A stretch of DNA of 32,672 nt from Methanosarcinales archaeon (GTDB taxonomy: Archaea > Halobacteriota > Syntropharchaeia > Alkanophagales > Methanospirareceae), in NCBI GenBank assembly GCA_025464325.1, contig JAODGH010000030.1, forward strand, positions 1 to 32,672. The letters are read 5' to 3'. The translations under genes were made by a program, and so were the position numbers. Numbering within the stretch: the stretch's first letter is position 1; each line of letters begins with the position of its first letter. The notes below the pieces were generated by a model. It had not been told where the DNA came from. It ran no database searches and worked only from the letters and a program-made list of their open reading frames with translations. Of the stretch, positions 7,908 through 31,193 are shown piece after piece.

Positions 7908-9021
7908 CCTTACCACAGCGTATCAGGTAGAGATTACCGCGATACACCACCTCATTATACTCTTTACGTCCCAGAATACGTTCGATATCCCCCGTGTGGT
8001 ATCCTTTTATCCGTTCTATCTCGGTAGAGGAGTAATTGGTAATGCCCCTGGCAAATTCGATACCACTGGTATCAACGATGCTGACAGTATCACCGGGCAT
8101 AAAACCCCCTTCTACACCTATGATGCCCGATGGTAACAGGCTACTACCCCGGCGCATTAAAGCTTCTTTTGCACCTTCATCCACAATTATCCTGCCCTTT
8201 GGCGGTGCGACAAAGAGAATCCAGCGTGCTCTGTCGTTCATCCTGCCTTTTGGGATGAAACGTGTGCCAACGGACTCACCATCTATGATACGAAGCAGGA
8301 CGTTATCTTTTGCTGCATCTGCGATGACCACGGGAATACCGGCGTTCATCGCGAGCTTTGCCGCTTCTATCTTCGTCTTCATGCCGCCAACGCTCCTGCC
8401 GTTGGACGCAAACCGTTCTATTTCGGGTGTTATCTCGCTGACGACCGGTATGAGTTCCGCCTTCTTACTCTTGCGGGGGTCATGCGTATATAAACCTTCT
8501 GTATCTGTGAGAATAATTAGCAGATTGGCTTCGAGATTGCTTGCTACGAGCGCCGAGAGGTTGTCATTATCACCCACCTTTATCTCTTCCACTGCCGTGG
8601 TATCATTCTCATTTATTATAGGAATCACGCCCGTTTTGAGCAGCGTGAGCAGTGTATTCCTTAGATTGAGATACCGGAGCCGATTGCAGAAATCGTCGTG
8701 TGTCAGCAGTACCTGGGCAATTATCTCACCATAAGCAGAAAAATAGCGATCATACGTGTTCATAAGCACATTCTGCCCAACAGCCGCAGTCGCCTGCAAC
8801 AATTTGACATCACGTGGTCTCTGTTTCAGGTTTAATTTGCTTATACCCGCGCTGATAGCGCCCGAAGAGACCAGTATTACCTCTTTACCACGCCTCTTCA
8901 GTTCCACTACCTCACGCACGAGCTTCTCCACCTTATTTGAATCAAGCCGGTATCGTTCATCCGTCAGGCTTCTCGTGCCCACCTTTACAACAATCCGTCT
9001 GGCTCTTGATATCGTATCCAT
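7843..9021 (-). CDS. proB: Glutamate 5-kinase ProB with C-terminal PUA domain
   Basis: Glutamate 5-kinase carries out the first step of proline synthesis. The amino-acid-kinase domain shows RRIVVKVGTRSLTD, VILVSSGAISAG, ENDTTAVEEIKVGDNDNLSALVA and SNGRSVGGMKTKIEAAK. A PUA domain follows from about residue 275 (GRIIVDEGAKEALMRRGSSLLPSG) and ends near GNLYLI. A tail of about 25 residues then runs inside truA. The ATG at 9021 has GAGG about nine bases upstream; a TTG five codons earlier is less likely. ProA is not present in the window, so the destination of the product is unconfirmed. Confidence 0.93.
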   Translation of the reverse strand: MDTISRARRIVVKVGTRSLTDERYRLDSNKVEKLVREVVELKRRGKEVILVSSGAISAGISKLNLKQRPRDVKLLQATAAVGQNVLMNTYDRYFSAYGEIIAQVLLTHDDFCNRLRYLNLRNTLLTLLKTGVIPIINENDTTAVEEIKVGDNDNLSALVASNLEANLLIILTDTEGLYTHDPRKSKKAELIPVVSEITPEIERFASNGRSVGGMKTKIEAAKLAMNAGIPVVIADAAKDNVLLRIIDGESVGTRFIPKGRMNDRARWILFVAPPKGRIIVDEGAKEALMRRGSSLLPSGIIGVEGGFMPGDTVSIVDTSGIEFARGITNYSSTEIERIKGYHTGDIERILGRKEYNEVVYRGNLYLIRCGKDESSTEDRLSWNKLSRLSNPA

Positions 9022-9062
9022 CCACACATGCCTCAAAAAGCGATTTGGTTTAAAAGAGTATA

Positions 9063-9072
9063 TTTTTTATAG
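9063..9072 (+). promoter_or_regulatory. TATA-like element of the cytochrome-CcmF operon
   Basis: TTTTTTATAG lies 26-35 bases upstream of the ATG at 9098. That is the archaeal TATA-to-start distance and would give a leaderless or nearly leaderless transcript. The spacing supports the ATG at 9098 over the in-frame ATG at 9110. On the opposite strand the same AT-rich gap holds a CTATAAAAAATATA element that could serve proB. Confidence 0.45.
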
Positions 9073-9097
9073 GCTCTATCTACATACTTATAGAATA

Positions 9098-9754
9098 ATG
9101 CATGATAAGATGAAGCTAACCATAGGCTTGTTGCTCATCGTTGTCGCTCTTTGCTTTGGGCTCGTAAATGCGAGTACGGACAATAAGACCGTAGAGGTGA
9201 TACCACCCAATCCTACGGGCTTTATTGGTAAATGGCATCCCGCACCGGAATGTGTGCAATGTCATGTCTCGCTACTTCCTGATAATAGATTGTCCTCAAT
9301 GGTTAGTTCCTGTGTCTGTCATGCGAATGAATACGAGACTGGTAGCTCCATAGATAATAAGAAGATCAGTGCGAAGGCACACGGAATAAAGACCTGTATC
9401 GACTGCCATATAGGTACCGGGGTAATAAAAGGAGAAGAGATCCCGAGCAGGGAGATACATCGCGTTCATGAAAATGTGAGTTGCGAAGGCTGTCATGGAA
9501 CGGCTGAAAAAACTGTGATACCAAAGAGCGCTAATTGCAACTCATGTCATACCGGAGGTGTGCATTCTATCCATGGAAACCGGACAGGTGACTTATGCGT
9601 CGTCTGCCACGGCGCTTTTGGTATAAAGTACAAAGAGGCAGGTTATCAGATGAAGGGGGAGATACCGGTAACGAAGAAAGAGGAGGAGAAGGTATATCCC
9701 ACTATCTTAAATATACTGAAGGCGCTATTCGAGTTCGTAACAGGAGCAGAGTAG
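9098..9754 (+). CDS. Secreted multiheme c-type cytochrome (five CxxCH plus one CxCH)
   Basis: A 218-residue exported protein with a hydrophobic signal (residues 6-25, ending near NAS). Five canonical heme-attachment sites are present: CVQCH (52-56), CIDCH (100-104), CEGCH (129-133), CNSCH (147-151) and CVVCH (167-171). A sixth cluster, CVCH at 72-75, has only one residue between the cysteines and may or may not bind heme. Additional histidines are available as axial ligands. A C-terminal amphipathic stretch (about 200-215) could associate with the membrane. I do not recognise a specific family; an electron-transfer role is inferred. Its stop codon is followed at once by the ATG of the next gene, in a tight operon with ccmF. 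Confidence 0.88.
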   Translation: MHDKMKLTIGLLLIVVALCFGLVNASTDNKTVEVIPPNPTGFIGKWHPAPECVQCHVSLLPDNRLSSMVSSCVCHANEYETGSSIDNKKISAKAHGIKTCIDCHIGTGVIKGEEIPSREIHRVHENVSCEGCHGTAEKTVIPKSANCNSCHTGGVHSIHGNRTGDLCVVCHGAFGIKYKEAGYQMKGEIPVTKKEEEKVYPTILNILKALFEFVTGAE

Positions 9755-10183
9755 ATGAAACTGACTAACATAATTATCATTAGCACACTCGTTGCGGCTG
9801 TATTTGTGGGTATCATCATATACATGCTGCTGGGTATCGGTCATGTACCGGTAATAAAGGTCCAGGCTGTGGTAACTGTAACAGACAATAAACCCACCAT
9901 ACGGATCGTTGAGATGAAACAGGATTTTATGAACGTTTTAGAATGCCCCAGGGGCGATTCAAAAGCGGTCTTTCCGGAAGTTGATGCGAAAGCGATAGTA
10001 AATAGAGCCACGATGAGTTATTGGGCAGCCAGGCATTATCACGGCAACGGTACTTATAACTTCACCATTGGCTTTCCTGAAGGAGCCGAGCCGAAGCCCG
10101 GTGATCGGGTTATGGTAATTGTGCAGGTGGTGGATCGCAGTGGACAACCGATAGCACGAGACGTGAAGGAGCAAGAGGTGTAA
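9755..10183 (+). CDS. Single-span membrane protein with extracytoplasmic beta-type domain, unrecognised
   Basis: A 142-residue protein with one N-terminal membrane segment (residues 5-28) and an extracytoplasmic domain of about 110 residues, rich in valine-alternating strands (VIKVQAVVTVTDNKPTIRIV, DRVMVIVQVVD). One cysteine (LECPRG) and the histidine-containing AARHYHGNG stretch are the only obvious candidate ligands. Gene order (zero gap after the cytochrome, five bases before ccmF) argues for a role in cytochrome maturation or in the same electron-transfer complex. Topology resembles CcmE (single span plus beta barrel), but I see no CcmE signature, so this remains a guess. Confidence 0.7.
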   Translation: MKLTNIIIISTLVAAVFVGIIIYMLLGIGHVPVIKVQAVVTVTDNKPTIRIVEMKQDFMNVLECPRGDSKAVFPEVDAKAIVNRATMSYWAARHYHGNGTYNFTIGFPEGAEPKPGDRVMVIVQVVDRSGQPIARDVKEQEV

Positions 10184-10188
10184 AAAGT

Positions 10189-12108
10189 ATGGAACTGGGA
10201 GAAGTGTTTATAATCACTGCCACCGTTCTGCTATTGTTTGATTTTGTTATCCTGCTCTCAAGAACACGTACGAAACGTGAGATCGAGACCTCGTTCTTTG
10301 TGGCACTGCTTGCATGTGTACTGATCGCAGCGGCATACTTCAGGCTTACCCTTGCGTTCCTTAACGATCTTTTCAGGCTGGCTGAGGTCTACAATTACAG
10401 CTCTTCCGGGCTCGCTATTGCGTATAAGATAGGGGGTCCCTGGATAGGCAGTAGTGGCTCGATGCTATTCATCGCATTCCTGTTTTCTATCGCGTATTTT
10501 CTATATCGTATGCGGATTTTTGGTGATGAGAGCGAATTCCACATAGCATCATGCCGTATACTGGACATCATGTTCATCTCTCTGCTTATCGTCACTTCAT
10601 TGAAGAGCCCATTTGAAGTGCTGCCGGTGACACCGCCCGATGGTGCGGGTCTCAATCCACTGCTCCAAACGTTCTGGGTGCTTGTGCATCCGCCGATAGT
10701 GTTTCTGGGTTATGTATTCGTCTTCTTCGCATGTGCATTCATGCTCGCCGGTATGGAATGTGGGTATCGACGTTTGAATCTCAATATCCTGTACGCCGCA
10801 TGGCTCTTCCTTGCGTTCGGGATAGCACTTGGTGGCTGGTGGTCTTACGAAGTACTGGGCTGGGGCGGTTACTGGGCATGGGACCCCGTAGAGACCGCAT
10901 CCTTACTACCATGGCTTGCACTCTCCGCATACTTCCATCTACCCGGTGGTATGCACCGTAAGGATCTGATGAGAGAGTTCACGCTCATGATCACTTTCTT
11001 CATGGTTATCTTTGCAACCGCACTTACCCGTGGCGGGTTGTTAGAATCGGTTCATGCGTTTGGCAAATCGCCTGTGGGTCCTGTACTGCTTATATTTGCA
11101 ATTGGTATAGTGATTTACTTCTTCTATCTCGCATTCCGGACGGGTAAGCCCATCTATGCTCTGGATGTTGACATCACCTCACTGAGATCCGTCGCCACCT
11201 TCACCGCCTTCTGGTCTTTGATGTTCCTCATGATCATATGTTTCATGGGCGATCTCGCACCGATAATAGGTAGTGCTGTGGTTGGAGCATCAATGACGAC
11301 TACACCGGAGTTTTATAACCTCTGGTGCTATCCATTCACACTCATCTTCGTCGCTGCTCTCGCAGGCTGTAACATCAATATGAAGATGAAACATTACGCA
11401 GTATTGATTCTCCCGGTAGTGATAACGGGCGTAGTTCTCGCAATGCTGCATCTACCAACGCCGAACTGGATGGCTAATTTCGGACTGCCTCTGCTATTTA
11501 CCGCTGGTTTCACCATCGTCTACTATCTCGTATCCGCTTTCCGTACCGGGAGTAGCTGGTATATCTGTGGCAGGTCTTTACTCCATCTCGCGCTGATCAT
11601 CATACTGATAGGTGTATTCATCAGTTCAACCGCGGTGAGTGAGAGCGGGGATATAATTGCAAAGCCCAACTCGGTAGTCAATGCCATAGGTATGAAACTA
11701 AACCTGGACAATTACACGATACAGCCGGGTAAGGGGCACGTCTACGCTCGAAGAACCCAGCATTTCTTCACTCTGCCCGAATATTCGAGTATGGACCTTA
11801 ATGTATCAATTGTCGACGGCTCCAGGGTGTATAACGGTAGCCTGGCAATGTACTATTACACAAATTATGGCATCATGTCAAAGCCTCTGATCATCTCCAC
11901 GGTACGAGGTGACCTGTACGTATTCATGCAACATACGAATTCCAGCTATGATGCGCTATTTTATGCGCTTATGGGCAAAGAGCAGCAGCCAGAAGATTTC
12001 ATTATAAGGGTGAAGCGCGTGCCACTGGTATGGACTGTCTGGCTTGGTGTGATAATGATAGCAATAAGTATGGTAATTCTGATATGTGACGAGTCACGAA
12101 AAAAATAG
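10189..12108 (+). CDS. ccmF: Cytochrome c biogenesis heme lyase component CcmF
   Basis: A 639-residue multi-pass membrane protein of the CcmF/heme-handling family, which ligates heme to apocytochrome c outside the membrane. The tryptophan-rich heme-binding block WGGYWAWDPVETASLLPW lies at about residues 225-242. The flanking conserved histidines are in FWVLVHPPIVFLGY (His167) and TRGGLLESVHAFG (His289). About 14 hydrophobic segments and a soluble domain near the C-terminus (about 500-610) before the last span match CcmF topology. It is the third gene of the cytochrome operon. No ccmA, B, C, E or H is nearby, so the rest of the system must be elsewhere. Confidence 0.92.
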   Translation: MELGEVFIITATVLLLFDFVILLSRTRTKREIETSFFVALLACVLIAAAYFRLTLAFLNDLFRLAEVYNYSSSGLAIAYKIGGPWIGSSGSMLFIAFLFSIAYFLYRMRIFGDESEFHIASCRILDIMFISLLIVTSLKSPFEVLPVTPPDGAGLNPLLQTFWVLVHPPIVFLGYVFVFFACAFMLAGMECGYRRLNLNILYAAWLFLAFGIALGGWWSYEVLGWGGYWAWDPVETASLLPWLALSAYFHLPGGMHRKDLMREFTLMITFFMVIFATALTRGGLLESVHAFGKSPVGPVLLIFAIGIVIYFFYLAFRTGKPIYALDVDITSLRSVATFTAFWSLMFLMIICFMGDLAPIIGSAVVGASMTTTPEFYNLWCYPFTLIFVAALAGCNINMKMKHYAVLILPVVITGVVLAMLHLPTPNWMANFGLPLLFTAGFTIVYYLVSAFRTGSSWYICGRSLLHLALIIILIGVFISSTAVSESGDIIAKPNSVVNAIGMKLNLDNYTIQPGKGHVYARRTQHFFTLPEYSSMDLNVSIVDGSRVYNGSLAMYYYTNYGIMSKPLIISTVRGDLYVFMQHTNSSYDALFYALMGKEQQPEDFIIRVKRVPLVWTVWLGVIMIAISMVILICDESRKK

Positions 12109-12128
12109 GGTAGCCGGAGAAATGGGCT

Positions 12129-12740
12129 TTATGGATGTTTCTCCGGTGGATGGCAGGCTTTGCAGGTCTCTTCCTTCACATCAATATCATGCTCGTTATG
12201 ACATGCCACACATTCACGCTCTTCAAATTCGGGACTCCAGTATCCATGGTATTCGGCAACCTTATGGTCTGTGTGTAAGATTGTACCATGGCACTTAAAA
12301 CAAGAAATATTCGGATCCGAAATTTCCTCTGCTGGTTGCTTCCTGGTACTGTGACATCTCATACAGGCTTCGGTCTTCGTTAGAGACTCAGTCCTGGGTG
12401 GTTCTCGCTCGAGTTTCTCCGCCATATCTTTATAAATCTCATCTAAATCCTTACCCTCACTCAAGCCCACGCTTATACCCTCTATATGGTTTGTCATCTC
12501 CTTTGCATACAGGAATAGCTCCGGTTCCGTAGTTTCATGACACGCATGGCAGTCAATACCGGCATGTGGAGAAGCCTGCATCGAATCATAGAAAGGCTGC
12601 ATCTCATGACAGTTCTTGGCACAGCTCTCAGGCTTGTGCATCTCTTCCATCATCACCGGTATTATCGCTGCAGCACCAGCAACAACGCCAAGTGTAACCA
12701 GGATAACCACCGCAATAATCACCTTCTCACCCTTCTCCAT
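12129..12740 (-). CDS. NapC/NirT-like membrane-anchored multiheme cytochrome c
   Basis: A 203-residue protein with one N-terminal membrane anchor (about 6-30). The block NCHEMQPFYDSMQASPHAG follows, typical of the NapC/NirT/NrfH quinol-dehydrogenase family, whose members pass electrons from membrane quinols (here perhaps methanophenazine or menaquinone) to outside partners. Heme sites are one CX3CH (CAKNCH, 40-45) and five CxxCH: CHACH 64, CMRCH 126, CFKCH 147, CVACH 177 and CKACH 193. Six hemes exceed the usual four. The ATG at 12740 has GGGGGG about six bases upstream. It is convergent with ccmF, whose product probably matures it. Confidence 0.9.
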   Translation of the reverse strand: MEKGEKVIIAVVILVTLGVVAGAAAIIPVMMEEMHKPESCAKNCHEMQPFYDSMQASPHAGIDCHACHETTEPELFLYAKEMTNHIEGISVGLSEGKDLDEIYKDMAEKLEREPPRTESLTKTEACMRCHSTRKQPAEEISDPNISCFKCHGTILHTDHKVAEYHGYWSPEFEERECVACHNEHDIDVKEETCKACHPPEKHP

Positions 12741-12774
12741 GTTCAACCCCCCTAACAGCTATATTCACGTCCAT
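12727..12774 (-). CDS. Possible 15-codon upstream ORF in the leader of the NapC-like gene
   Basis: An ATG at 12774 preceded by AGGAG (12783-12787) opens a frame of 15 codons (MDVNIAVRGVEHGEG). It stops at 12727-12729, overlapping the first codons of the cytochrome in another frame. Its ribosome-binding site looks at least as good as many in this window. It could couple or attenuate translation of the cytochrome, or be chance. A TATA-like AAGTTTATATG near 12809-12820 would place both in one leader. Confidence 0.22.
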   Translation of the reverse strand: MDVNIAVRGVEHGEG

Positions 12775-12920: not shown

Positions 12921-12969
12921 TATCTGTAGCGGTCAAGTTAATTATGTATAGAGTTTGTACTGTAACGAA

Positions 12970-13788
12970 ATGGAATCAAATGCGTACGGTGAGGCAGGCT
13001 TTGAGATAAAGGAGGAGCCGTTTTATCTGCCACAGGGCGACGAGATCGCACTATTTGAGGCAGCATACCGGAATAAACTACCTGTTATGCTTAAGGGACC
13101 CACCGGTAGTGGAAAAACGCGATTGGTGGAGTACATGGCGTGGAAACTGGGTCGACCGCTCTACACAGTGGCATGCCACGAAGATCTGAGCGGTAATGAC
13201 CTGATCGGCAGATATATCATCAAAGGAGACGAGGTGGAATGGATAGATGGTCCGCTTCTGATGGCGATAAAAAACGGCGGTATAGTTTATCTGGATGAGG
13301 TGGTAGAAGCGAGGAAGGACACCGTGGTCGTTATTCATCCGTTAACGGATTACCGGCGATACTTGCTGGTGGAGAAACTGGGCAAGATATTTTATGCGCC
13401 TGATGATTTCATGCTGGTGATAAGTTACAATCCAGGATACCAGAGTGTGTTAAAGGAGCTGAAACAGAGCACGAGACAGAGGTTCGTCAGTATCTCGCTC
13501 GGCTGGCCGGAGGAAGACCTTGAAACACAAATAGTGCAACAGGAGACAGGCATAAATGTAGAAACCGCGAAGAAGCTGGTAAAAGCGGCGAATAAGATAA
13601 GAAATCTTATACATCAGGGGCTCGAAGAGGGTGTTTCGACCAGAGAACTCGTCTATGCCGGTAGACTGCTTATGAGTGGTGTACCGGTCCGTGATGCGTT
13701 ATTCTCGACTGTGATAGAGCCATTAACGCATGATAGCGATCTTAAGAGGAGTATAGAGGAGATACTCAAGAATTATTTCGAGATCTGA
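12970..13788 (+). CDS. MoxR-type AAA+ ATPase of the CbbQ/NirQ/NorQ family
   Basis: A 272-residue AAA+ ATPase. Walker A is GPTGSGKT, then [29 protein letters not shown] (the CbbQ/NorQ block after Walker A), Walker [10 protein letters not shown], sensor [11 protein letters not shown] and arginine-finger region STRQRFV. Family members work with a VWA partner to remodel or activate metalloenzymes such as NO reductase (NorQ/NorD) or Rubisco (CbbQ/CbbO). The ATG at 12970 is taken; a TTG at 12955 is in frame, and no ribosome-binding site decides between them. The VWA partner gene follows after 15 bp. No NO reductase or Rubisco gene is in the window, so the client is unknown. Confidence 0.92.
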
Positions 13789-13803: not shown

Positions 13804-16800
13804 GTGATGAGAGGGGTCGGAAACGGTAGGCGGAAGACCAGAAAGGTTCTCAAGCGGTATTACCCGGGCGATGTGCCCGAGAGTCTGGTGGAGGTACTGT
13901 ATCCGGTCGTTGATCGGGTGGGGTACGATGTTCTGGAGCATATCGTTAACGTTTGTACTCACCTGGACGGTAATAGTGAGCGTACGGTGTTGAATCTACT
14001 CAGGAGTTGTCCGGGACTCATCGATAAATTGCTTCTGAACGGTGATTCGGATATGGTCATGCAAGTTTATACGCTCTGTGGAGAGGTTGCCAGATATAAC
14101 GAGGGAACTGCGATCATGTTGCTCGAGCAGAGTCCAGCACTCGTGGACAGGGTGGGATATGATGGTCTGGAACGAATCGCGCGGTTGAGCAGTCGAATAG
14201 CGGACATAGATGGATTTGTCGCCGCCAGACTGATGAGTCTGAGTCCAGCACTCGTGGACAGGGTGGGATATGATGGTCTGGAACGGATCGCGCAGCTCTG
14301 TACCCGTGTGGGGCGTGACCGCCAATTTATTGCCGCGTTGCTCGAGATGACACCCGAACTGCTGGATAAGCTGGGTCTTGACGTTCTGGAGAAGGTAGCA
14401 GAACTTTGTGGTCGAGTCGTAGAGTACAGTAATAAGACCGCCATCAGGTTGCTTGGTGAGAGCCCGGAATTGATAAGTAGAAACGATTATACGCTTCTGG
14501 AGAAGGTGGTGAACCTGTGTAACAGAATAGCCATGCGTGACGGGTTCGTTGCTGCCCGTGTGCTGGAGATGAGCCCCGGGATTATCGATAGTATGGGGTA
14601 TGATGGTCTGAAGCAACTGGCGGAGCTCTGTGGCGCGATCAACGAGGACGATAATTTTATAGCCGTTAAAGTGCTCGATGAGACCAGGGATATCATTGCG
14701 AAACTCCATAGTGATAAAGACCTTGTCTCTGCGGTATACAACCTTTGTGGACGTATTGCACGGGAATACAACTGGCGAACCGCCGTCAGGTTGCTGGAGA
14801 TGAGTCCCTCACTGACTGAGCAGCTACTCAGGTACGGCGATAAGGCGTACGTGCTGAAGGTTTATGCACTTGCAGAGGCAGTTGGAGAAGATAGCTGGCT
14901 GACGGCGGTGGGATTGCTTGAAGAGAGCCCGAATATCATCGGCAGGGGCGGTTACAGTGGTCTGGAGAAGGTTGCGCACAAAGCTATGGAGATAGCACGT
15001 GCCGAAGGTAGTGAAAAAGCAACCTCTTTTGTCCGTGGTGAGTGTTCCGAATATGCAGATTTCTTCGATTCTATAACTGAAGGTCTTGAGTTGAAGCGGA
15101 TACGACCCGTTCTGGTGCACTATTTGAATGCACTGCTTGGCTACAGAATAGAGATCGTGGGGACAGAAGGTACCACCGGGACCGATGGCGCGCGTATTTT
15201 TCTGCCGGAACGTATAAAGGAGTTTGAGGATGAAGATAAGAATTTCACGCTCTATAAGGTTCTGGCAACGCACGAAGAGGCTCATCTGGAGTACGGCAGT
15301 TTTGATTTCGAACTGATGCGCATCAGGGATGTTGTGGGTGAGCACGAAGGCGACCTGAACGCCTTTTATTCGCTCTTTCCTGAGCCGGCTCTGGCAGAGG
15401 ACCTCATGACTATCCTCGAAGATTACAGGATCAATTCACGACTGAAGGCGGAATATCCGGTTTTGGGGATGCAGATATCGGAAATGAATGCTCATCTGGT
15501 CGCCAGAAGACCCTCGCTGCACGAGTTAGCCAATGATAAACAGAGAGTGGTGGAACTCATAGCCCAGCAGTTGATTGCCGGAACGACAAAGGAGCGGGTA
15601 CCGGTAGCCATGGAGCGAATACTCGAACGGGCGATATCAATAAGCAGTGTCTTAGCCGCACCCGGGGCTGACGTACACGAGACAGCACGGGTCACTACCA
15701 CGTTATATTCGCTGATAGATGAGGCGTATCGAGAACCTTACCGGCATGCGGATTATTTCTCACCGCCTCTGGACCAATCAGAGGTGGAAAAGAATATTGG
15801 TAATTTTGGTAGATCCGCGCGAAAAATCGCTGAAAAGCTTAATGCCGGCATGGATGATGAGGATAAGGGCGGTAATAATTCCAACACACATTCGGAAGAG
15901 AGCATACGGGAGCTACTGGTAGCACTGTATAAGGAGAAGGGCATTAAACCCCGGGAGGTGGAGACACAGGTCGATTCACTCGATGTGAATATGCTGAAAG
16001 ATTACCTGAGCGATCTTGAGACGATAATCACCGATGAGAATGCGCTTACAGCCGGGCGAGACACTTACCTGTACCCGGAATGGGGGATAGATATCAGAGA
16101 TTATCGACCCGACTGGGTGCGAGTACGTGAAGAGACTCTCGAGGGTGAATCTGATTCGTTCTATCACGAGACGATACGGAAATACAGTGGACAGATAAAG
16201 GTGATCAGACGGGAATTCCAGCAGCTTCGACCCGAAGGTCGAGTGAAATTACGCGGTCAGTTCGATGGAGACGATATAGACCTGGATGCCGCGGTACAGT
16301 ACTTCATAGATAAACGCTTAAAACTCTCGCTATCGGAGCGGAATTATCTACGAACCGAGAACAGATCACGGGATATAGCGGTCGCGTTTCTGGTGGACAT
16401 GAGCGGTAGCACAAGCGGGACAACAATCGCATGTGAGAAGGAGGCGCTGATACTGATGTCAGAGGCATTGAAAGAACTGGGCGATGCATTTGCCATTTAT
16501 GGGTTCTCGGGATACGGACGTGACAACGTGGTATTCTATGTGATCAAGGATTTTGAAGAGGCTTACGAGGGGGTACAACACCGGATATCGGCAATTCGCA
16601 GTAACCGATCCACCCGGATTGCGCCCGCGATCAGGCATACAGCGAGTAAATTGAGGAGTCGTGAGGAGCGAACGAAGATAATAATCCTGCTGAGCGACGG
16701 TAAACCGCTGGATCGTGATTATTATGGCAGTTATGCCATTGAAGATACGCGGATGGCGTTGAAAGAGGCACAGAGATATGGCATCAAATCGTTCTGTATC

Positions 16801-16926
16801 ACGGTAGACCGTGAGAGCGCCGAATATTTACCACGGATGTACGCCGATAGCCGGTGGGTGGTGATCGATGACGTTTCGAAACTGCCGGACAAAATAACGC
16901 GAATTTACCGCCGCTTCACCACCTGA
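13804..16926 (+). CDS. NorD/CbbO-like VWA protein with helical repeats and an HEXXH motif
   Basis: A 1040-residue partner of the upstream AAA+ ATPase. Residues about 25-400 hold roughly nine helical repeats of 36-41 residues, each starting like SPALVDRVGYDGLERIA (copies near 110, 147, 183, 220, 257, 334 and 375). Residues 484-545 contain THEEAHLEYGSF, with HEEAH at 490-494, and a downstream AEDLMTILEDYRI, resembling a gluzincin zinc site. Residues 857-1040 are a VWA domain with the complete metal-ion site DMSGST (865-870), Thr937 and LLSDGKP (about 962-968). Typical NorD is near 600-650 residues, so this is much longer. Start is GTG 13804 or ATG 13807. It is probably cytoplasmic, as there is no signal or span. 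The client is unknown. Confidence 0.88.
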   Translation: MMRGVGNGRRKTRKVLKRYYPGDVPESLVEVLYPVVDRVGYDVLEHIVNVCTHLDGNSERTVLNLLRSCPGLIDKLLLNGDSDMVMQVYTLCGEVARYNEGTAIMLLEQSPALVDRVGYDGLERIARLSSRIADIDGFVAARLMSLSPALVDRVGYDGLERIAQLCTRVGRDRQFIAALLEMTPELLDKLGLDVLEKVAELCGRVVEYSNKTAIRLLGESPELISRNDYTLLEKVVNLCNRIAMRDGFVAARVLEMSPGIIDSMGYDGLKQLAELCGAINEDDNFIAVKVLDETRDIIAKLHSDKDLVSAVYNLCGRIAREYNWRTAVRLLEMSPSLTEQLLRYGDKAYVLKVYALAEAVGEDSWLTAVGLLEESPNIIGRGGYSGLEKVAHKAMEIARAEGSEKATSFVRGECSEYADFFDSITEGLELKRIRPVLVHYLNALLGYRIEIVGTEGTTGTDGARIFLPERIKEFEDEDKNFTLYKVLATHEEAHLEYGSFDFELMRIRDVVGEHEGDLNAFYSLFPEPALAEDLMTILEDYRINSRLKAEYPVLGMQISEMNAHLVARRPSLHELANDKQRVVELIAQQLIAGTTKERVPVAMERILERAISISSVLAAPGADVHETARVTTTLYSLIDEAYREPYRHADYFSPPLDQSEVEKNIGNFGRSARKIAEKLNAGMDDEDKGGNNSNTHSEESIRELLVALYKEKGIKPREVETQVDSLDVNMLKDYLSDLETIITDENALTAGRDTYLYPEWGIDIRDYRPDWVRVREETLEGESDSFYHETIRKYSGQIKVIRREFQQLRPEGRVKLRGQFDGDDIDLDAAVQYFIDKRLKLSLSERNYLRTENRSRDIAVAFLVDMSGSTSGTTIACEKEALILMSEALKELGDAFAIYGFSGYGRDNVVFYVIKDFEEAYEGVQHRISAIRSNRSTRIAPAIRHTASKLRSREERTKIIILLSDGKPLDRDYYGSYAIEDTRMALKEAQRYGIKSFCITVDRESAEYLPRMYADSRWVVIDDVSKLPDKITRIYRRFTT
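14131..14285 (+). repeat. Perfect 44-bp tandem copies within the VWA gene
   Basis: Bases 14131-14174 and 14242-14285 are identical over 44 positions and are spaced by 111 bp, exactly one 37-residue protein repeat. Both begin AGTCCAGCACTCGTGG. Neighbouring repeats are similar only at the protein level, so these two copies look like a recent duplication or gene conversion within the solenoid. Confidence 0.85.
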
Positions 16927-20300: not shown

Positions 20301-22691
20301 TCACTTCTTCACCCTTATCAACCTTTTAAGGTTGGTGGGATTGAACGAAGGGTCATAACCTCTTATCGGTCCCTCCAGTATCTTCTTACTCTTCCAGTCT
20401 ATCTTCCAGCCGTGATCATCCTCCAGCTTCTTCAGTAATTCATTCTTCGTGGCTACTGGTAGATCCGTCGCCGTCCTCACGAATAGATGCCAGTCAGGTG
20501 GATATGCTTTGAGATACTTCAGACTCAGATCTATGTAGTGCGTGAGCTTTATGGACCGTCCACGGTCTGTATCAGACGGGCGGAAGCATAACTTCGCAAT
20601 CATCGGTAGTGCCTCTTCCACTGTCTCGCACGCCACGAGCAAATCCTGCGGCGCCGGTTCGACATATATCTCTTCACCGTTACTCGCATCTATTATACGC
20701 CAGTCATCTTTCAGGTCCGGTCGTCCAAGAAACGCACGCCTGTATTTCGTACCATGAGGTCCAACAACCGCAGGTACACCCAATCTGTTGAAACCGGTGG
20801 CGATAGAAGCCGCCTTCTGCGACATCGCCCCCCATGCTACCCCGCATGCACCCACTCTGCAGAGTATGTAATCGGCGATCTCCTCATAATTCCCACGTAA
20901 TGATCGTCGCGCGAATATACTCGCTATCTTTATCGCCGCATCGTGTATATGCGCATTTGAGACACAGGAGCCGATATTGAGCACGCCCCCGGCATCGAAC
21001 CTGCCATGATGCTGCTCATAGACGGTCTTACCTTCTTCGTCCTTCCATAACGCCGCATCTATCGCCATGCAGCCCGTAAGTGTAACGATATAGTTACGTT
21101 CCGCGAACTCCTTCACAATGAGCCACGCATCCTTCGTGCCGTTCGGGTAATTGCCACAGCCTATCGGTGCAATGACACCCGGTATCGTTCCCAGCACAAT
21201 CGGCGCTCCGACTTCTCTTATCTCACTGTCCCATATCGGACCCCTGCCTATTCGCATCCGCCCCTTCTCTTCCTTTAACTGCGGATACGCCGCTTTCGTT
21301 ATCACGTCCACGATCGGGATATGTCGCTTACAGACCTGTTCACACCTGCCACAGCCAACGCATTTATCAAATAGATCTGCAAGAGGCTTGATATTACCCG
21401 TAGTGGCGCTTTGATTCGCTTCCCCTATACGCAGTCCGTTGGGACACGCAAGCGTACAGTTGCCACAGAGTATACACGAATTCACATAATACTTGAACTC
21501 TTCATCGCTGAGTATCAGCTTCAGTTTCCGCCTCTTCTTATCCATCTGCAACGCAGTCTTAACCGCTACCTCGCCCACACGTTCGGGATCGAGTATCACA
21601 ACGCCCGGAACACGCTCGTTCACCAGGTCATCTACTATCCTGTCCGGTGCGTCATCTGTTCTATCCACGAGACCATGCAACGCCTTGTCGTTTGTCACTA
21701 TCAGCGGTGAATGCACCCGCTGACACTGCTCCAGTATGTCAGCCCTGATACATTGCTCATCAACTACCACGACATCTGCGATACCCGCACGTAACACACG
21801 CAGCTGCCTGCCCAATGCAGAAGCGACTTTTGCTTTCTTATACACACGCGTCGTATCAAGTGCGGTACAGCATATACCTGCGAGCTCTACAACATCGTCA
21901 AGCCCGCTATCTATAAGATAATCGCCAATCTCCGCAGCCGGCGGTACGTTATGACCTATAACAAGTATGACCGGCTTGTCAGTATCTATCGTGCCTATCC
22001 CGACATCTACCATCGGCACATCGGGTCCACCACCCTCATGGCTCGATGGCATGCCGTATGCAGCGATCTGTATGATATCCGCGGCTTCTTTACTCAGCGA
22101 GTCCAGCATACCCATGTGCAGCGCTTTCGACTCGAAGTCCAGGTACGAACCCTCCTGCCCCGTATGGAGCGCATCTGCCAGCTGCACTATCTGCTCCTCT
22201 ATATAATCGAATACGCGTTCGTAATCCGCAATTGTACGTGGTTTAATACCACATATCAGCCTTGTGAGTGGCGCTTCCACGTTCACCTCCGGTCCAAAAT
22301 CTATCGGCACATCGGGTCCAAACTTCCTTATCATATCATGAAGAAGATGTCTGCCATGTCCACAATGAGCGCTACAGCCGACAAGACATGCAAGAAGAAC
22401 GATCCTGCCGTGCTGTGCATCCATCCTTATACCGCATGCACCCTTCTTATTGCCCGAGAGATCGCATTTCCCATATGTACACAGGCAACACATGTCGCAG
22501 AAAGGTGCATAAAAAGGTTTATAACGTTTCAATAATTTGAAATCCCAGTCACGGAGCGTGATTATACCAGGCATTGGATGTGGTCCCAGCGGCTCCCAGT
22601 CCTCGCCTTCCTCCTCTACACTACCTATACGAATCTGTACATTTTCAAGCCCTACAATCGAGAATAACCCACCTTTCTTCAGCGAGTCCAT
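20301..22691 (-). CDS. cdhA: CO dehydrogenase/acetyl-CoA synthase alpha subunit CdhA
   Basis: This is the Ni-Fe-S CO-oxidising subunit of the archaeal CODH/ACS complex, which makes or splits acetyl-CoA with the corrinoid protein. An N-terminal cysteine cluster region (CDMCCLCTYGKCD, KGACGI, CLVGCSAHCGHGRH) supplies the D/B clusters. A mid-protein pair of 4Fe-4S motifs (CILCGNCTLACPNG and CVGCGRCEQVCKRHIP) is the hallmark of archaeal CdhA. Later Cys/His blocks (LTGCMAID, NIGSCVSNAH, CRVGACGVAWG) form the C-cluster. The ATG at 22691 is chosen because CTTAAATAC (22713-22721) lies 26 bp upstream, giving a leaderless start. A GTG at 22709 is also in frame. cdhB, C, D and E are not adjacent. Confidence 0.95.
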   Translation of the reverse strand: MDSLKKGGLFSIVGLENVQIRIGSVEEEGEDWEPLGPHPMPGIITLRDWDFKLLKRYKPFYAPFCDMCCLCTYGKCDLSGNKKGACGIRMDAQHGRIVLLACLVGCSAHCGHGRHLLHDMIRKFGPDVPIDFGPEVNVEAPLTRLICGIKPRTIADYERVFDYIEEQIVQLADALHTGQEGSYLDFESKALHMGMLDSLSKEAADIIQIAAYGMPSSHEGGGPDVPMVDVGIGTIDTDKPVILVIGHNVPPAAEIGDYLIDSGLDDVVELAGICCTALDTTRVYKKAKVASALGRQLRVLRAGIADVVVVDEQCIRADILEQCQRVHSPLIVTNDKALHGLVDRTDDAPDRIVDDLVNERVPGVVILDPERVGEVAVKTALQMDKKRRKLKLILSDEEFKYYVNSCILCGNCTLACPNGLRIGEANQSATTGNIKPLADLFDKCVGCGRCEQVCKRHIPIVDVITKAAYPQLKEEKGRMRIGRGPIWDSEIREVGAPIVLGTIPGVIAPIGCGNYPNGTKDAWLIVKEFAERNYIVTLTGCMAIDAALWKDEEGKTVYEQHHGRFDAGGVLNIGSCVSNAHIHDAAIKIASIFARRSLRGNYEEIADYILCRVGACGVAWGAMSQKAASIATGFNRLGVPAVVGPHGTKYRRAFLGRPDLKDDWRIIDASNGEEIYVEPAPQDLLVACETVEEALPMIAKLCFRPSDTDRGRSIKLTHYIDLSLKYLKAYPPDWHLFVRTATDLPVATKNELLKKLEDDHGWKIDWKSKKILEGPIRGYDPSFNPTNLKRLIRVKK

Positions 22692-22712
22692 ACTAATACT
22701 ACCCACCACCTG

Positions 22713-27135: not shown

Positions 27136-27210
27136 CGGACCCGGCGGGATTCGAACCCGCGATCCCCGGCTTAGAAGGCCGGTGCTTTATCCTGGCTAAG
27201 CCACGGGCCC
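27136..27210 (-). tRNA. tRNA-Arg (anticodon UCU)
   Basis: The 75-base minus-strand sequence folds as a tRNA. The acceptor stem GGGCCCG pairs with CGGGTCC (one G-U), followed by discriminator G. The D arm includes GCTTAGCC. The anticodon stem CCGGC/GCCGG has loop CTTCTAA, so the anticodon is TCT (reads AGA/AGG). The T arm is CGGGTTCGAATCCCG. The CCA end is not encoded (TATG follows), and I see no intron. A TATA-like AATTAATATAC lies about 35-45 bp upstream. Confidence 0.95.
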
Positions 27211-30287: not shown

Positions 30288-31193
30288 ATGATCATCTTAT
30301 CTGGCGGTACGGGCACGCCCAAGCTGTTACCGGGTTTGAAAGAGGTATTTGGCGAAGAGAATCTCACAATAGTGGTGAATACCGCGGAAGATGTCTATAT
30401 ATCCGGCAATTTAATATGCCCGGATGTTGATTCCGTGATATATACTCTTGCGGGGATAATAGACCGTGAGAGATGGTGGGGCGTTGCAGGCGATACGTTT
30501 CATACTCATAACGCACTGAAGAGGCGAGGGCATGACGAGCGGATGATGATCGGTGATACCGACAGGGCGACCCATATATTGAGGACGGAACTGATAAAGC
30601 GTGGTATGACACTTACAGAAGCCACCTGCGAGCTCAAGGCACGATTCGGTATAAATGCCGAGATACTGCCGATGACCGACGAACGTGTGAGCACAAGGAT
30701 AATCACGCCCGACGGTGAACTCCATTTTCAGGAGTTCTGGGTTACGGAGCATGGAGAGCCCGAGGTATGTGATGTGCGATTTGACGGCATTGAGCGCGCG
30801 AAACCAACCCGGGCAGTTATAAACGCGCTGGAATCCGCACATGAAGTGCTTATAGGACCAAGCAATCCGATAACAAGTATAGGTCCGATCCTGGGTTTGA
30901 AAGGCGTAAGGGAGCTATTGAAGGGTAAAGAGGTGGCAGCGATATCGCCAATAGTGGGTAACGAGCCGGTAAGTGGTCCTGCGGGCAAGCTAATGCGAGC
31001 GAAGGGTTTTGAGGTATCGCCCTCTGGTATCTACAGATGCTATGAGGATTTCCTGGATGCGCTGGTGATAGATAAGAATGATAAGCTGGATGTCGATGTA
31101 GACCTAAAAGTGATAAAAACAGACATACTGATAAGAACACCGGAGGATAGCGTGAGATTGGCGATGCTCCTACGCGATCATCTGGCGTGGTAA
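30288..31193 (+). CDS. cofD: 2-phospho-L-lactate transferase CofD
   Basis: A 301-residue CofD that joins a guanylyl-activated lactyl-type side chain to Fo to give F420-0, in coenzyme F420 biosynthesis. The N-terminal MIILSGGTGTPKLLPGL, NTAEDVYISGNLICPDVDSVIYTLAG, WGVAGDTFHTHNAL, IGDTDRATHILRTELI and IGPSNPITSIGPIL are the family's conserved blocks. Length is typical. It is convergent with the S27ae gene (15 bp gap). It shows that the organism uses F420, as methanogens and ANME archaea do. Confidence 0.97.
   Translation: MIILSGGTGTPKLLPGLKEVFGEENLTIVVNTAEDVYISGNLICPDVDSVIYTLAGIIDRERWWGVAGDTFHTHNALKRRGHDERMMIGDTDRATHILRTELIKRGMTLTEATCELKARFGINAEILPMTDERVSTRIITPDGELHFQEFWVTEHGEPEVCDVRFDGIERAKPTRAVINALESAHEVLIGPSNPITSIGPILGLKGVRELLKGKEVAAISPIVGNEPVSGPAGKLMRAKGFEVSPSGIYRCYEDFLDALVIDKNDKLDVDVDLKVIKTDILIRTPEDSVRLAMLLRDHLAW

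Follow-up and report, generated by a model that had tools for sequence, protein, structure and literature searches.

A putative gluzincin-like domain inside a NorD-type VWA protein of an ANME-1 archaeon, and its division between two genes in relatives

Introduction

The usual view of NorD-type proteins is that of scaffolds passing the force of a motor to a client, and the CobT-type chelatases act in metal insertion. In canonical NorQD, according to the accessible text of PMC13036017, a MoxR ring grips the finger of the VWA domain together with the C-terminus, rotates and stretches NorD, and the client is remodelled. The text of that paper mentions neither histidine nor zinc, and the available part of PMC9976466 contains neither HEXXH nor zinc. 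No report of the HExxH site described here was found among the papers listed by searches of the open-licence PMC literature. Pairs of MoxR and vWA proteins have been linked with proteases in ternary systems with FtsH or with an associated zincin, as described in the accessible part of PMC7159879. The protease is a separate protein in those systems, whereas the zincin-like domain described here lies inside the VWA protein itself.

Among the described gluzincins, the metalloprotease domain of BlaR1 binds its metal through H201, H205, and E242 (PMC9834060, available text), while the third ligand of the minigluzincins is a histidine (PMC6925264, available text). We describe a NorD-type gene in a stretch of 32,672 nucleotides, analysed as a whole and called the window below, and compare the protein with these systems.

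Results

The host of the NorD-type gene is an ANME-1 archaeon, a methane oxidiser. The source assembly comprises 1.42 Mb in 59 contigs and is 94.46% complete, and the closest named relatives are ANME-1/Methanophagales records. The features of a NorD-type partner were found at the locus, namely a C-terminal VWA domain with a MIDAS motif (DxSxS) and an adjoining gene for a NorQ/CbbQ-type MoxR ATPase (Table 1). The VWA Pfam match was 6.1e-11; residues 750-1038 matched NorD 9qhd by phmmer (E 1.2e-49), and the VWA region aligned with 9qh6_G in VIA (Z 29.0, 278 residues, rmsd 6.4). The VWA domain, the MIDAS, the finger, and the adjoining CbbQ/NorQ-type MoxR gene are thus shared with NorD of NorQD (Paracoccus, Jhaorihella; 9qh6, 9qhd), whereas the helical repeat array and the HExxH...ED site are additions of the window protein. 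In the N-terminal comparison with canonical NorD, the profile matches to NorD residues 34-118 were weak (E 0.16-0.18).

Table 1. Position of the NorD-type gene, its partner gene, and the observed or predicted features of the protein in the window
Feature	Position	Strand	Evidence
NorQ/CbbQ-type MoxR AAA+ ATPase, partner gene	12955..13788	+	AAA_5 1e-31, CbbQ_C 4.9e-27
NorD-type VWA protein, 1040 aa	13804..16926	+	ORF; VWA and CobT_C Pfam matches; phmmer to NorD 9qhd
Helical repeat array, residues ~5-410	13816..15033	+	Model all-helical, pLDDT mostly ~90
Gluzincin-like domain, residues 412-641	15037..15726	+	Domain model; best VIA matches are zincins
Active-site helix (putative), residues 477-496	15232..15291	+	Secondary structure of model
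HEEAH, H490-E491-x-x-H494	15271..15285	+	Sequence; HExxH in 75/95 relatives
Linker between ligand helices	15334..15384	+	Gene break point in many ANME-1 relatives; gene of the window uncut
Glutamate helix, residues 528-550	15385..15453	+	Secondary structure of model
E539, D540, R542	15418..15429	+	Conservation in intact relatives
VWA domain with NorD-type finger, residues 753-1040	16060..16923	+	VIA match to 9qh6_G
MIDAS motif DMSGS, residues 865-869	16396..16410	+	Sequence

An earlier note, made from the DNA letters, had placed HEEAH at residues 490-494 and read it, with a glutamate about 40 residues later, as a gluzincin-like zinc site. The placement was exact: HEEAH occurs once in the open reading frame and is the sole H-x3-H in the protein, where 0.023 HExxH motifs are expected from its own composition. 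The segment that comes after it, AEDLMTILEDYRI, contains E532, E539, and D540. Both glutamates named in the note were present; E539 follows H490 at a distance of 49 residues, slightly farther than proposed.

With near-copies and proteins shorter than 640 aa (hence all split C halves) set aside, 95 non-redundant relatives remained, and 75 of them have HExxH. Because of this conservation the motif is far beyond chance, and we conclude from the aligned relatives that HEEAH is not a chance string. All 75 HExxH-bearing relatives carry D540 and R542, and position 539 is E in 74 and D in one; they span ANME-1, Methanosarcinaceae, an Aenigmatarchaeote, and Nitrospirota. Position 532, the other glutamate proposed in the note, is E in 0 of the 75 and was rejected as a metal ligand for that reason. 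The site residues were constant in the ANME-1 homologues, where free variation would have spoken against a site. Loci in the family searches were taken from the best-scoring places only; among these, the Nitrospirota carried HE[AVM]GH and ED[AMT]R in 29/29 fetched loci. One of the two collecting patterns itself contains HE, and the intact full-length finds, with one exception, also carry the other, VWA pattern. A second paralogue of ~780 aa was seen at five Methanosarcinaceae loci; it has an intact HEVGH but no long repeat array, and the neighbour clustering showed no MoxR gene next to it there.

The domain alignment holds 78 of the 96 rows of the long-relative set, of which 60 are intact, H490, E491, and H494 being present by definition, and 18 degenerate. 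D540 and R542 were kept in all 60 intact rows and E539 in 59. In the degenerate rows H494 was gone in all 18 and E491 was replaced by Q in 16, while position 540 was G in 12 and D in 6. D540 therefore tends to disappear with the site (Fisher p 4e-10, relatedness ignored). E539 and R542 were retained in 18/18 degenerate rows, indicating that these two residues also serve a purpose independent of a metal site. Two other bacterial phyla, again sampled at best-scoring places, showed HExxH in 1 of 56 readable rows, 4 of the 60 rows being unreadable at the motif. In an annotated Agrobacterium NorD, whose gene lies next to a NOR gene, the corresponding residues are A-A-x-x-A by eye. To judge from these alignments, the pattern resembles that of an active lineage surrounded by many eroded relatives.

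The whole 1040-aa model yielded almost only VWA-type matches in Foldseek and VIA, and for this reason the gluzincin-like domain was folded alone. The isolated domain model (78 sequences) had a mean pLDDT of 89.9 and a pTM of 0.79, with 94-98 in the ten-residue blocks of residues 432-641. Its predicted order is a helix, two strands, the HExxH helix, a linker, and the glutamate helix, and both ligand helices are predicted with high confidence within the same single domain. Foldseek gave no match to the isolated domain model at E <= 0.001. VIA-align was run over the top 1000 Foldseek entries, and its seven top rows were all zincin chains (Z 4.7-6.3): selecase (4qhj, Z 6.3, rmsd 3.3, 97 residues; 4qhi, Z 6.0), BlaR1 (8exr, Z 6.0, rmsd 4.6, 128 residues; 8exp, Z 5.3), the minigluzincins abylysin (4jiu, Z 5.6) and jannalysin (4jix, Z 5.0), and ArdC (6sna, Z 4.7). 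The next row was an unrelated protein at Z 4.2; the thermolysin-type enzymes scored Z 3.3-3.7, and an HExxH oxygenase domain (8s5f) was a weak match at Z 3.4. The zincin Z values are low, in a range that, as the tool warns, may mean a common arrangement, and the weight of the comparison lies in the consistency of the list.

With the minigluzincins and selecase (4jiu, 4jix, 4qhj; Z 5.0-6.3 over 91-102 residues) the predicted domain shares the backing helix, the strands, the HExxH helix, and the next helix. It differs from them in having no detected sequence similarity, a longer linker, E/D in place of the histidine as candidate third ligand, and a position inside an AAA+ co-chaperone. In the alignment with 8exr (model 18-161 on chain 137-275), with the HExxH motifs superposed, the aligned ranges behind the motif are offset by a net 8 residues, which equals the difference between 49 (H490-E539) and 41 (H201-E242); this is arithmetic on the end points and not a distance. 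H201/H205/E242 would thus match H490/H494/E539, which points to E539 as the ligand and to D540 as a second-shell residue. BlaR1/MecR1, however, are membrane proteins whose gluzincin domain carries E242xxxD. The D at +4 of the classical gluzincin ExxxD is absent from the window domain (I at +4 from E539), while a glutamate in its own helix after the HExxH helix is present.

No peptidase family was among the Pfam hits of the 78 domain members. By hhalign in local mode, with small profiles of 13 and 5 sequences, no similarity to M48 or M78 was detected beyond HExxH (16 and 11 columns around the motif, probability 5% and 11%). Membership of M48 or M78 was rejected, the motif alone being aligned; the profile test is weak, since M48 against M78 themselves gives 5%. 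CobT, the VWA subunit of the aerobic cobaltochelatase, was weakly similar by profile in the region that follows the motif, near E539-R542 (PDB matches E 0.023 and 0.074), and Pfam CobT (PF06213) appeared in 21 of the 78 members as a sub-threshold type of hit (best E 0.0017) and was not listed for the domain of the window. HExxH itself precedes the aligned part, and the aligned CobT has Q at the position of D540. Taken together, a gluzincin-like site at H490, E491, H494, and E539 appears well supported by conservation and moderately by the predicted fold; of the earlier proposal, E532 is the part that fell away.

In many relatives the protein is encoded by two genes. A match (best places) was obtained in 28 genomes of the family to which the window belongs; the protein was present as two genes in 16 and as a fused gene in 5, the window included, and the remaining 7 had a single half or fragments. 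The break separates the HEEAH helix from the glutamate helix, in the linker that joins them, and any metal site there would therefore be shared between two chains. The two halves overlap by ATGA in 5 genomes, the N chain being only ~225 aa in one of these, and lie apart in 11: by ~0.7 kb in one, by ~10.5 kb in one, and on different contigs in nine; for two of these nine the C half was recovered incompletely, the glutamate helix not being in the recovered part. Twelve N halves stop 32-39 residues past the first His, HEEAH included, and a thirteenth runs off its contig; the C frames start ~27-52 residues ahead of the ED motif. Over the 12 closest pairs each, dN/dS was 0.13-0.34 for the N half and 0.07-0.25 for the C half, demonstrating that purifying selection acts on both halves. 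Sequencing error was rejected as the cause of the split in view of the five exact ATGA overlaps, the 12 further N stops at the same place, and the low dN/dS.

Fused and split forms were intermixed on the tree, on which three genomes with the C half alone seen were scored as split. The fused label needs 5 changes, at least 4 of them forced by supported branches, and a single fission was not supported. Split relatives surround the fused protein of the window on the tree, where its branch is long (0.42) and its place unsure. Compared with the other fused forms, this protein has a shorter stretch linking the ligand helices; it looks as if it had been re-fused or were evolving fast. At the ATGA pairs (L035 4449, L043 6372, L046 6369, L050 1870, L037 2331), GGTGAG or GAGGTGAGG stands ~6-9 bases before the C start. 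These strings resemble an archaeal ribosome-binding site and may equally reflect coding conservation, because a conserved Gly-Glu is encoded there.

Of 79 other loci, many of them cut short by the end of a contig, 40 had a MoxR homologue next to the gene (41 of 80 with the window). The second-largest cluster of neighbours reached 7 loci, and no gene besides the MoxR partner was found to travel widely with the NorD-type gene in the 80 loci. Small clusters that cross clades contained a HAD-like gene (5 loci) and a radical-SAM gene (3 loci), and an unnamed gene of ~144 aa recurs with NorD-type genes in six Nitrospirota loci. The only other neighbour in the window that recurs near the gene is gyrB, at 1 of 19 ANME-type loci. 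Directly upstream of the MoxR gene, at 8756-12746, lie genes for a multihaem cytochrome, a CcmF-type assembly protein, and a NapC/NirT-type cytochrome. Elsewhere the window encodes a Prismane/CO dehydrogenase-family protein with ferredoxin domains, likely the CODH/ACS alpha subunit (20301-22709, minus strand), CofD (30288-31193, plus strand), and a tRNA (27136-27210, minus strand); CofD and the CODH-family gene are ordinary methanogen-type genes. The NOR/haem-copper oxidase family (PF00115) had no match at E <= 0.001 in the host's own genome, 94.46% complete as noted, and NOR is an unlikely client there. CobN is present in two long copies, and nothing was found linking it to the MoxR/NorD-type pair.

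Discussion

The data suggest, somewhat more strongly than they suggest the opposite, that residues 412-641 form an AAA+-coupled, gluzincin-type metallohydrolase domain inside a NorD-type VWA co-chaperone, a reading drawn from conservation and from the predicted fold. H490, H494, and E539 would bind a divalent metal, most likely zinc, with D540 in the second shell or as an alternative ligand, and E491 would act as the catalytic base. The neighbouring MoxR ring would turn and pull the VWA domain by its finger, as in canonical NorQD, and this movement may shift the gluzincin domain and the repeat array, a possible platform for the client, relative to the bound client. The likeliest role would be ATP-gated cleavage of peptide bonds that serves to mature a specific protein or complex or to control its quality.

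A site of two histidines and a carboxylate could also hold a metal, iron or another, that is to be inserted into a client, and have no hydrolase activity. Non-haem iron can be bound by just such ligands, as the weak match to the oxygenase domain recalls, and relatives of NorD serve metal insertion (PMC13036017, accessible text). The annotated Agrobacterium NorD beside its NOR gene lacks the site, however, which indicates that iron insertion does not need it. Moreover, E491, which is not a ligand in gluzincins, is kept throughout the intact rows and becomes Q in most of the degenerate ones; hydrolysis is favoured over mere metal holding because this position of the catalytic base is invariant. 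We therefore regard simple metal delivery as rather unlikely.

That the domain persists in many relatives with a degenerate motif, and that E539 and R542 outlast HExxH, would fit a retired peptidase in which a structural metal or a polar core remains and the domain serves as a scaffold or as a platform for client binding. A purely structural site need not retain E491, though, and the set of H, E, H, and D540 is kept across archaea and in every fetched Nitrospirota locus and is lost together, so that such retirement seems improbable. The motif is short, and annotated NorD has the same region without HExxH, as would be seen if HEEAH were a meaningless string in a helix; against its low expected count, its retention in most long relatives, and its coupled loss, this explanation is very improbable.

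For the metallohydrolase reading, the two-gene form is the more surprising part of the finding. In many ANME-1 relatives the site would form solely upon assembly of the N and C chains, with the HExxH helix supplied by the repeat-array protein and the glutamate helix by the VWA protein. That the MoxR AAA+ ATPase and the VWA protein form a machine with a built-in gluzincin protease, whose metal site is assembled in trans in many ANME-1 members, is a tentative proposal that we consider possible. If it is true, only the complete motor complex would have protease activity, and the gene structure itself would act as a safety lock. The two-gene form would then also offer a natural test, in which each half alone is inactive and the pair is active. 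If the catalytic site is true, one large branch of NorD-type proteins would be enzymes, and MoxR ATPases would be linked directly with proteolysis; canonical NorD, and perhaps CobT as well, would carry an eroded peptidase as its N-terminal domain.
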